A stretch of DNA of 36,144 bases from a virus. A program made the translations under genes and the position numbers. Below the pieces are notes generated by a model. The model was not told where the DNA came from, searched no databases, and saw only the letters and a list, made by a program, of their open reading frames with translations. Below are positions 2,626 through 6,450 of the stretch, in pieces; positions within the stretch are counted from its first letter, which is position 1; each line of letters begins with the position of its first letter. The stretch covers positions 1 through 36,144 of the IMG/VR virus record IMGVR_UViG_3300032323_003043; one strand, 5' to 3'.

Positions 2626-3073
2626 ATTTTGTTCCAAAAGTACCTTTTACAGCCTTTAATATGTGTCCTCGTTGAGGGCCTGAAGTATTATAAGACACAT
2701 GAACCCAATCAGGATTGCTATTGTTTCCATATTCCCAAATTAATTGATCAAAGAAAAGATTATCTCTAATATATTTAAAAACTTGTACGTTAGTAACATG
2801 AAGATGTCCATCCATATCAATATCCATAGCCTCACCACTAAGATGTTGAGAATTTCTAGCTCCTCCAATCTTTTTATTTAAAGCTGCACTTCTATAACCA
2901 GATGAGATATAGATAGGTACACCAAAATGTTCTCTAATTGGTTGGAATATCTTCTCAGCAAGTACCTTCATATTCTCAATATGCTCAGGAGTAGGTTGAT
3001 TGCTAACTCCTTTTCTTTTTGCCATATCACTCCTTATCATTTCAAAGAGTGTTAAATTTTTACTTAAGTTCAT
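2612..3073 (-). CDS. M15-family peptidoglycan peptidase (endolysin)
   Basis: 153 residues, a zinc D-Ala-D-Ala carboxypeptidase/endopeptidase fold. Zinc and catalytic residues are readable: the SQHLSGEAMDID motif gives H77 and D84, WEYG gives the likely catalytic E114, and WVHVSY gives H125. The preceding SGYRSAALNKKIGGA is also typical. The length fits a single-domain phage endolysin of the M15_3 type. No signal peptide is present, so it would need a holin or other route to the periplasm. It overlaps the secreted-protein gene before it by 14 bases and the lipoprotein gene after it, forming a likely lysis or envelope cassette. Confidence 0.9.
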   Translation of the reverse strand: MNLSKNLTLFEMIRSDMAKRKGVSNQPTPEHIENMKVLAEKIFQPIREHFGVPIYISSGYRSAALNKKIGGARNSQHLSGEAMDIDMDGHLHVTNVQVFKYIRDNLFFDQLIWEYGNNSNPDWVHVSYNTSGPQRGHILKAVKGTFGTKYVQM

Positions 3074-3446
3074 ATCTTATTTTTAAATCTGCATATTTAA
3101 TTTCAAATTCACTTTTATTGTATCCATTTCTATCTAATGAGAAATCAATGGTACATAAAACTTTATCTTTATCTTGACAATAATACCAATAAATTATTTC
3201 CCCTTCATTAACAAACCTTTCAGTTTTATGTATAATGTAAGTTTGTAACTTATTAGTATAAATAGTAATAATACTTGCAGCACTATCAATCTCAATATTA
3301 GCATCTATTAATTCTTTCTCAGACCATGGAGTCCATCTCTCATCTCTCTTAATTGTACAGAAAGAGAAAGTCTTAGCTCTATGATACTGTTGAGAGTAAG
3401 AAATAGTACTTACAAAGAATAATAATATAAATAGTAATTTCTTCAT
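3060..3446 (-). CDS. Secreted protein of unknown function
   Basis: 128 residues from the ATG at 3446. The frame is open further upstream, but that part runs into the tRNA-like element at 3464, and this ATG opens directly with a good signal peptide, MKKLLFILLFFVSTISYSQQ, typical of Bacteroidetes secreted proteins (cleavage near SYSQ). The mature part is beta-rich and has two cysteines. It overlaps the endolysin start by 14 bases. It could act in the periplasm at lysis or alter the infected cell's envelope; no known family was recognised. Confidence 0.72.
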   Translation of the reverse strand: MKKLLFILLFFVSTISYSQQYHRAKTFSFCTIKRDERWTPWSEKELIDANIEIDSAASIITIYTNKLQTYIIHKTERFVNEGEIIYWYYCQDKDKVLCTIDFSLDRNGYNKSEFEIKYADLKIRYELK

Positions 3447-3463: not shown

Positions 3464-3545
3464 CAGTCAAGATGAGATTCGAACTCATGACTATGCAACC
3501 TTATAGGATGTGATGGGCCCCTTTCACATTACGCATTACTTGACT
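3464..3545 (-). tRNA. Atypical tRNA-like element 1
   Basis: The ends are tRNA-like: a perfect 7-bp acceptor stem (AGTCAAG with CTTGACT) and a canonical T arm, ATGAG-TTCGAAT-CTCAT. The 48 bases between acceptor and T arm do not fold into normal D and anticodon arms. Instead they hold a 6-bp hairpin ATGTGA/TCACAT with a 10-base loop, and ATGC can pair with GCAT across most of the region. No anticodon can be assigned with a U33. It could be a degenerate tRNA, a tRNA mimic or an interrupted tRNA. CCA is not encoded. Confidence 0.45.
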
Positions 3546-3825
3546 ATAAACAACCCACTAAACTCTCGGTTTTCACAAGTATAGGGTTGTTGACCTAAGA
3601 AGACTATTCTTAGGGATGAAACCGATAATGAAGAACTCTAATTTTTCCAACTTACAAGTTCTATGGCTGTCCTCTTTACAGAGTTAGGAACAGACTTAGT
3701 TTGCTGTCTTACCAACAAATACAGATAGTCAATCTGAGTGAAACCAACTTTCACTACGATACTCATATAGGAATCACCCTATTCTATCATATTGAGCATA
3801 CTATCCATTGATTAGATGGAGTCGT

Positions 3826-3912
3826 AGTCAGGGTAAGAATTGCACTTACTTCGTCCTTCCAGATATTACTATCCTTACAATGAAGGGTGTTACTTATATA
3901 CACCACCTGACT
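3826..3912 (-). tRNA. Atypical tRNA-like element 2 (long anticodon loop)
   Basis: 87 bases with a perfect acceptor stem (AGTCAGG/CCTGACT), discriminator A at 3825, a D stem GTGT/ACAC and a T arm GTAAG-TGCAATT-CTTAC. A perfect 5-bp stem CCTTC/GAAGG sits where the anticodon stem belongs and is followed by exactly five variable-loop bases (ACGAA). Its loop is 22 bases instead of 7, that is, about 15 extra bases. The 5' side of the loop (ATTGTA) would give U33 and anticodon TGT (Thr) if the extra bases were removed. The D loop lacks the usual GG. Function is uncertain. Confidence 0.45.
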
Positions 3913-4010
3913 AATAAATACTCAGGGACTAATAGGAATTTACACCTATAAGTTTGAGTATTTATATAATTGCAACTTATTTTTTCCAACAGGAGTTGCC
4001 AACCTTCGGT

Positions 4011-4122
4011 AGTCAGGGCAGGACTCGAACCTGCAAGTTGTGTTACTGTGGTTCACTAAGATTACCCACACCTTCACACAGCATTATTGTCTTATGCGTG
4101 TCTGCTATTTCACCACCTGACT
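4011..4122 (-). tRNA. Atypical tRNA-like element 3 (112 nt, Leu-like 5' end)
   Basis: Perfect acceptor AGTCAGG/CCTGACT, discriminator A at 4010 and a strong T arm GCAGG-TTCGAGT-CCTGC. The 5' part (GTGAAATAGCAGACACGC) resembles the D arm of a tRNA-Leu. The length, 112 bases, is 20-30 longer than a class II tRNA. The middle can form ACACGCAT/ATGC(T)GTGT and TGTGG/CCACA with a 14-base loop rather than one clear anticodon arm. It shares the first 12 bases of its 5' end with element 2, which suggests duplication. Confidence 0.45.
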
Positions 4123-4127
4123 AACAT

Positions 4128-4180
4128 TTGTCGGGAATCCCTATTTATTGTCGGGAAACCTTAAAAAATGTCGGGAATCA
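4128..4180 (+). repeat. Three TGTCGGGAA repeats at exact 20-bp spacing
   Basis: Copies begin at 4128 (TTGTCGGGAATCC), 4148 (TTGTCGGGAAACC) and 4168 (ATGTCGGGAATCA). The spacing is exactly 20 bp, close to two helical turns, so a protein would bind one face of the DNA. The array lies between the stop region of the 60-residue gene and the tRNA-like cluster, and ends 9 bases before the 5' end of element 3. Read on the minus strand the core is TCCCGA, also seen once each at 6275 and 9511. Confidence 0.7.
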
Positions 4181-4360
4181 AGAGTTATCCTCTATTAATT
4201 CCTCAATACTTGCTATACAAGAATCTACTTCTGATTGCTCAGATCCACCTTCATCTATCTCAGATAAACAAAGATAATATAATTCCATTATATCATTTTT
4301 AAGAGAAGGATATTTTTCCTTCTTTTCTTTAATAAATTTTTCTAAATATTCTAAATTCAT
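4178..4360 (-). CDS. Small acidic helical protein
   Basis: 60 residues from the ATG at 4360, which overlaps the stop of the winged-helix gene in an ATGA. The frame also has an ATG three codons upstream, but the coupled start is preferred. The sequence is lysine-rich at the N-terminus and strongly acidic at the C-terminus (DEGGSEQSEVDS, EELIEDNS). No motif is recognised. Coupling to a DNA-binding protein suggests a partner or modulator role, which is speculation. Confidence 0.65.
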   Translation of the reverse strand: MNLEYLEKFIKEKKEKYPSLKNDIMELYYLCLSEIDEGGSEQSEVDSCIASIEELIEDNS

Positions 4361-4722
4361 ATGTCCCAAATATAACCAACACCTTTAATAGTTCTAATAG
4401 GAGCAATACTTATCTTACTCCTTATGTGTCTAACATGAACATCAACAGTTCTATCTTCTACACATACTCCTAACCATATTCTATTAAGTAATTCCTCTCT
4501 AGAAACTACTCTGCCTGCATGTTTTTGCAAATACTTAGCTACTAAAAATTCTTTTTTAGGAAGATGTAATTTCTTACCACTAAAAGATGCAGTATAATCA
4601 TCAGATAAAAGATGTACATTAGTAGATGGAGGATTAAGATATCTCTCCATCCACTGTGCACCAGCAATAAATGCATCTGGATTCTCAGAAAATTGAGAAG
4701 CTTCAATTAGTTCTTGCCTCAT
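4357..4722 (-). CDS. Orphan OmpR/PhoB-type winged-helix DNA-binding protein
   Basis: 121 residues. The C-terminal two thirds (about 45-121) match the transcriptional regulator C-terminal domain of response regulators: LPKKEFLVAKYLQKHAGRVV, SREELLNRIW, then the recognition helix region DRTVDVHVRHIRSKI and the wing IRTIKGVGYIWDI. There is no receiver domain; the N-terminal 40 residues (with AGAQWMERYLNPPS) are unlike CheY. It would thus bind DNA without phosphorelay control. It is coupled to a small acidic protein by ATGA. Candidate target sites are the 20-bp-spaced repeats just downstream, since this family binds direct repeats, but the usual half-site spacing is about 10-11 bp. Confidence 0.88.
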   Translation of the reverse strand: MRQELIEASQFSENPDAFIAGAQWMERYLNPPSTNVHLLSDDYTASFSGKKLHLPKKEFLVAKYLQKHAGRVVSREELLNRIWLGVCVEDRTVDVHVRHIRSKISIAPIRTIKGVGYIWDI

Positions 4723-6340: not shown

Positions 6341-6376
6341 ACAGAACTATTTATTCACAATTAACCAAAACACATG

Positions 6377-6450
6377 TGATTCCAACAAGAATCGAACTTG
6401 TAACCTACTGCTTAGAAGGCAGTTGCTCTATCCAATTGAGCTATGGAACC
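6377..6450 (-). tRNA. tRNA-Arg (anticodon TCT)
   Basis: A canonical 74-base cloverleaf. The acceptor GGTTCCA pairs with TGGAATC (one G-T), the D arm contains AGCTCAATTGGATAGAGC, the anticodon arm is ACTGC-CTTCTAA-GCAGT with anticodon TCT for the AGA codon, and the T arm is ACAAG-TTCGATT-CTTGT. CCA is not encoded and the discriminator is A. AGA is a very common arginine codon in the AT-rich genes of this window, so the tRNA likely supports phage translation. It lies just downstream of a small protein gene and before a terminator. Confidence 0.97.

Follow-up and report, generated by a model that had tools for sequence, protein, structure and literature searches.

Bacteriophage T4 produces RNAC (species 1 RNA) and RNAD, late RNAs that were detected by Northern blot and whose function is unknown (PMC9697503). 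RNAC is encoded in a tRNA cluster. Its acceptor stem has 7 bp, one of them G-U, its T arm is CCGGG-TTCGAAT-CCCGG, and no anticodon arm was seen in its last 92 nt. Parts of this architecture occur in other RNAs as well. The tRNA-like domain of tmRNA has an acceptor stem and a T arm with the anticodon arm absent, and the bacterial Y RNA YrlA is a noncoding RNA with a tRNA-like module. Furthermore, some phage tRNAs counter tRNA-targeting defences; these are phage-made tRNA-type RNAs found near tRNA clusters, and they are decoding-competent and restore the tRNA pool (PMC10264068, PMC11555353).

Here we describe three tRNA-like elements, termed E1, E2 and E3, in a window of 36,144 nucleotides, which is the whole stretch of DNA analysed (positions 1 to 36,144 of the IMG/VR virus record IMGVR_UViG_3300032323_003043). 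They share the acceptor stem and T arm with tRNA (RF00005), including class II tRNA-Leu, and the class of E3 also has a Leu-type D arm, but the window elements have no normal anticodon arm and fall below the gathering score. Unlike in tmRNA, pair 3-70 of E1 in the window is U-A instead of G3-U70 and there is no tag frame, and neither Rfam nor ARAGORN called a tmRNA in the window. For YrlA there was no Rfam match, and a Ro/TROVE gene was absent from the 19 phage contigs examined. Unlike the defence-escaping phage tRNAs, the present elements cannot decode. RNAC has no sequence relation to E1 and was scored by model R1 at 14.4 bits, through the acceptor stem and T arm only; moreover, RNAC and RNAD are single RNAs, present in hundreds of T4-like records, and form no arrays with variable centres. 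Judged by these sequence tests, RNAC is the nearest known RNA, similar in kind and not a homologue. The literature searched, which included few subscription papers, held no description of such elements, and priority is not certain.

Three tRNA-ended elements on one strand

A preliminary description of this DNA had reported three elements with tRNA-type ends, perfect 7-bp acceptor stems and lengths of 82, 87 and 112 nt, and our analysis bears this out, with all three on the minus strand. E1 (3464–3545; 82 nt including a discriminator G) is an anticodon-less tRNA-like RNA consisting of the acceptor stem AGTCAAG/CTTGACT, a 4-bp inner stem, within which are a hairpin resembling a D arm and a stub of 2 bp, and the T arm ATGAG-TTCGAAT-CTCAT. 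E2 (3825–3912; 87 nt) has the acceptor stem AGTCAGG/CCTGACT and, as first described, a 5-bp anticodon-type stem (CCTTC/GAAGG) with a 22-nt loop, followed by a variable loop of five nucleotides (ACGAA). E3 (4010–4122; 112 nt) has the same acceptor stem, which agrees with the earlier view that elements 2 and 3 have common ends, together with a Leu-type D arm and the T arm GCAGG-TTCGAGT-CCTGC. Its enlarged centre is made up of a 4-bp stem with a 9-nt loop and then a variable region of 42 nt; a TAAGA/TCTTA match in E3 was noticed by eye. The D loops of E2 (ATATAAGTA) and E3 have no GG pair. A 7-bp acceptor stem and a T arm, as in tRNA, were found in all the elements; the T arm is standard in E1 and E3, as claimed before, but not in E2, whose T loop (TGCAATT) is unusual. 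A normal anticodon arm (5-bp stem, 7-nt loop, U33) was found in none, again in line with the first account: E1 has a 2-bp stub, E2 a 5-bp stem with a 22-nt loop, and E3 a 4-bp stem with a 9-nt loop.

Of the searches proposed at the outset, ARAGORN at standard settings and Rfam at the gathering score called only an intact tRNA-Arg(UCU) at 6376–6450 (minus strand) and missed E1, E2 and E3, and Rfam at a loose threshold returned nothing credible in the window. With introns allowed, ARAGORN reads E2 as a tRNA-Thr(UGU) with a 15-nt insert (GGATAGTAATATCTG; 3860–3874, minus strand), which is able to form GATA-GTAA-TATC and has an identical sequence in L002, L003, L082 and L092. Scanning for 7-bp acceptor stems with an adjoining 5-bp T arm gave three matches in the 36-kb window versus one per 741 kb of dinucleotide-shuffled sequence, so the three matches are not due to chance. 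The complete 667-nt stretch has a better fold than 20 shuffled versions of it (z −3.7), and the folding energy of the single elements is unremarkable (z −0.6, −2.3 and −1.4 for E1, E2 and E3). There is good support for the three elements being structured RNAs.

The phage is best called crAss-like. Its large terminase, a match to PHROG 6681, shares about 35% identity with those of Flavobacterium FPSV phages, and the 158 terminase matches also include Bacteroides phages and crAssphage records. Comparison with the relative L002 gives the elements their strongest support: between it and the window, E1 is 98.8% and E2 98.9% identical, better conserved than every neighbouring gene measured (four genes at 78–91% and the tRNA-Arg at 71%), and the spacers are hardly alignable. 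The array starts with the E3 position in the window and in L002, but the centres there are unrelated. Normal tRNAs with these ends, named in the preliminary description as contrary evidence, were not what the relatives carried; they have the same abnormal elements.

E1 as an RNA family

Two strict patterns for E1 yielded 16 and 13 contigs in IMG/VR and a relaxed pattern yielded 39; one of the 16 (L086) resembles coding sequence, not E1. The alignment (A2) contains 28 distinct IMG/VR sequences. In its consensus, the 7-bp acceptor stem is followed by the 4-bp inner stem, inside which lie a hairpin (ATGTG..CACAT), whose AA..GG loop resembles a D loop, and a CC..GG stub; the T arm comes last. In the covariation check that had been proposed, 99.1% of pair cells were standard and 12 of the 23 pairs showed compensatory changes on both sides, with a covariation score that none of 500 shuffles reached. 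RNAalifold, unaided, predicts the identical fold from these 28 sequences. The acceptor stems differ with compensation (CGGGCAG, TATTGGG, TGTTAGG), the T-loop consensus is kept, and the discriminator base varies among relatives. The inner domain is near-invariant, which is partly an effect of the search pattern, yet positions free of the pattern are constant too. A pseudogene or decayed tRNA as the source of E1 is ruled out by the covariation.

Proteins near E1 in the hosting phages are often only 44–75% identical, and some E1 contigs have no crAss-like terminase, several of these being fragments. Elsewhere, E1 immediately follows a tRNA-Met or a promoter, or is next to tRNA-Arg, with the other parts of the locus absent. 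Since in other phages it is solitary or has ordinary tRNAs as neighbours, E1 is a unit of its own. No gene travelling with E1 was seen in the neighbourhoods read. E1 is absent from Rfam, and its relatives score 28.7 bits or lower against RF00005 (gathering cut-off 29). It was found neither by BLAST in the phage collection nor by pattern in 84,980 bacterial and archaeal species (one genome each). By comparison and covariation, E1 is a conserved new RNA family of a known kind, tRNA-like RNA.

Variable centres, spacers and neighbouring tRNAs

The E3 class includes 32 elements with the acceptor stem AGTCAGG/CCTGACT and a mostly Leu-type D arm, and many E1-bearing phages carry additional members of it. 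The element scan set no requirement for an AGTCAGG acceptor, and the normal tRNAs at the same loci have 65 different acceptors in 70, with AGTCAGG in none. The centres are about 16–105 nt long, and their similarity is no higher than that of shuffled sequence. In a 208-kb phage contig, 14 E3-class elements lie within 12 kb, all 14 on one strand, among ordinary tRNAs of the same strand; their 5' 25 nt are 82% identical and their 3' 24 nt 94%, and the centres are 42% identical versus 40% when shuffled. In other phages, the 5' ends are 77% and the 3' ends 86% identical, with centres at 36% versus 36% when shuffled, and matches among centres were confined to near relatives. The folding energy of the centres is no better than shuffled (mean z −0.12; real tRNAs reach only −0.45 in the same test), and no k-mer is clearly common to them, TAGTGAA in 5 of 31 being equal to the shuffle maximum. 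Some E3-class relatives pass the RF00005 gathering score, with up to 44 bits. We rate arrays of constant-ended, variable-centred elements as being without known counterpart.

Guides and loop-loop pairing were considered for the centres and rejected. The longest exact matches of centres to their own phage genome were mostly shuffle-like, with 3 of 14 centres exceeding the best of ten shuffles by 1–2 nt, and loop-loop pairing gave a single match of at least 5 bp.

Abnormal tRNAs are present in related phages as well. An identical 26-nt insert (CATTCCATTCTGAGGAATGGAGAGAG) follows the anticodon of tRNA-Arg(UCU) in two different tRNA bodies (L018 4115–4213, L006 4321–4419 and L007 4881–4979), so insertion into phage tRNAs does occur in this group; by pairing with the anticodon, the insert forms a long continuous rod. 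Related phages also have a Leu(CAA)-like tRNA containing 18 additional nt. A tRNA-Met with a hairpin insert of about 19 nt in the D loop lies directly upstream of E1 in two contigs (L084 3219–3307 and L090 9449–9537), at the place where the relative L080 has a normal tRNA (3227–3296). In Flavobacterium phage immuto (L095, MW353175), which has been isolated, the annotated tRNA-Cys at 3059–3144 is 86 nt long; its centre is abnormal, apparently owing to a hairpin insertion in the D loop, and ARAGORN makes no call there.

The spacers of the window, on the same strand as the elements, contain structured modules. Directly 5' of E1 is an 85-nt module (3546–3630; 88% identical over aligned positions) in which, by eye, the pairings CGGTTT/AAACCG and AACAACCC/GGGTTGTT cross, next to a hairpin CCTAAGAA/TTCTTAGG; a pseudoknot is possible. 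In L002, the module stands before and after E1 (3787–3870 and 3950–4033), and the second copy has taken the place of the final bases of the E1 acceptor, so that this copy of E1 may be damaged. From E2 to the 85-nt module extends a spacer with hairpins (3631–3824), which is 62% identical to L002 where the two align, with roughly one third gaps. Between E3 and E2, a hairpin module (AAATACTCA, an AATAGG-type stem and TGAGTATTT; 3917–3970) has a 37-nt match at 91.9% in immuto, just upstream of the abnormal 'tRNA-Cys'. Another spacer RNA (GTGTTGTTCCCTTGAGAnAGGAA...CAACACAGAGG..CCTC) recurs in unrelated phages (L002 3658–3800, L113 5020–5110, L126 1539–1626 and L155). A leader hairpin, in most cases with TGAC in front and with a loop of the GAAAGA type, was found just upstream of 12 of 138 elements versus 60 of 40,000 random positions. 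It lies within 34 nt upstream of tRNAs and tRNA-like elements in L004, L005, L006, L018, L083, L114, L115, L119, L122, L129 and L155. The Rfam freshwater-1 RNA (RF02979) occurs in the same phage tRNA clusters (L155 1885–1947 and L119 2073–2134, both minus strand).

Upstream of E3, TTCCCGACA is repeated three times at intervals of about 23 nt (4126–4185, minus strand). Such repeats also lie upstream of the first element in L002 (3140–3190) and of E1 in L079, in both cases followed by a TAnnTTTG promoter box, and are possible control sites. The box TAGTTTTG, which we take to be a Bacteroidetes-type promoter, ends a few bases before E1 in L079 and also precedes the first element in L002, a placement that fits separate expression of small RNAs. 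Directly upstream of the RNA locus, 4357–4722 (minus strand) encodes a protein of PHROG 731, a group with no listed function, with, by eye, an OmpR-type DNA-binding domain, possibly a regulator of the locus; used as a search query, it found no relatives.

A possible role and its alternatives

Among the interpretations offered in the preliminary description, tRNA mimics fit best. We tentatively propose, with somewhat less than even confidence, that E1, E2 and E3 are genes for non-decoding tRNA-like RNAs that mature as tRNAs do and mimic host tRNA. They would be transcribed on the strand of the phage tRNA. Since an acceptor stem and a T arm are present, the 5' ends would be cut by RNase P, and the 3' ends would be trimmed and given CCA, which the elements do not encode, by host enzymes. 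At the level of sequence, the elements fold the upper half of a tRNA and have no usable anticodon. E1 is the constant member, its near-invariant inner domain and compensating stems being as for a specific binding surface, although binding itself is putative. In the E3 class, a constant tRNA frame holds a centre that differs between phages and between copies, which may point to a target that changes, as it would in an arms race. The mimics would most likely act in trans and might occupy or mislead host tRNA-handling factors, candidates being processing or modifying enzymes and tRNA-targeting defence nucleases, and the variable centres might set the target. Counting against mimicry are the folding energies of the E3-class centres, which do not mark these as structured, and the absence of a gene accompanying E1 in the neighbourhoods read. 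The published cases of phage tRNAs in defence, moreover, require working tRNAs, not mimics (PMC11555353).

A larger ornate RNA with the tRNA-like parts as domains, another of the early options, is kept as a rival that we consider unlikely. The unusually good fold of the whole 667 nt speaks for it, as do the recurrent noncoding modules that spacers of unrelated phages have in common and the 85-nt module on both sides of E1 in L002, but E1 occurs elsewhere without the other parts, and ROOL, GOLLD and OLE gave no Rfam match.

It is improbable that these are tRNA genes with very short introns, spliced to working tRNAs. Removal of 15 nt would leave E2 with a plausible tRNA-Thr(UGU) anticodon arm, and the tRNA-Arg(UCU) and Leu(CAA)-like tRNA with additional nucleotides point in the same direction. 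However, this early option is not supported for E1, where an anticodon arm that an intron could interrupt is absent, or for the E3 class, whose centres have no common exon-like stem halves; it is unlikely for E2, given the odd T loop and the D loop without GG. By eye, the rod formed by the 26-nt insert is not an archaeal-type bulge-helix-bulge, and RtcB and RNA_ligase were found in none of 13–14 relatives, many of whose contigs are incomplete.

We give little credence to decayed tRNA genes whose ends were kept by chance or through recent origin. The mutually unrelated E3-class centres, folding no better than shuffled, would agree with decay, but E1 covaries across very different phages, which excludes it for E1, and E2 is conserved where the spacers are not. 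Decay would strike the ends too, and these stay 77–94% alike across phages.

Very improbable is an action of the constant ends as DNA, namely as sites of recombination or attachment at which cassettes would be moved from phage to phage: attachment sites are commonly found in tRNA genes and constant ends around unrelated centres look cassette-like, but DNA sites have no need of compensatory pairs in E1 stems or a kept T-loop consensus, and the elements lie on one strand together with tRNAs.

Along with mimicry of host tRNA, we regard it as possible, if rather unlikely, that the phages carry arrays of RNA payloads on one tRNA frame, each centre for a different host target, with E1 as the constant partner. 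The constant ends would then serve processing and stability, and the centres would be interchangeable and fast-changing.

Ordinary annotation misses such RNAs or lists them as tRNAs (some are Gln, Tyr or Pro according to ARAGORN, and that of immuto is annotated as Cys), so that the family is overlooked and the tRNA counts of these phages are inflated. The elements also offer a comparative handle on T4 RNAC, the function of which is still listed as unknown. If they are indeed mimics, they would represent RNA-based phage interference with host tRNA handling or with tRNA-cutting immunity, and arrays of payloads, if this is what they are, would correspond, at the RNA level, to an anti-defence gene island.
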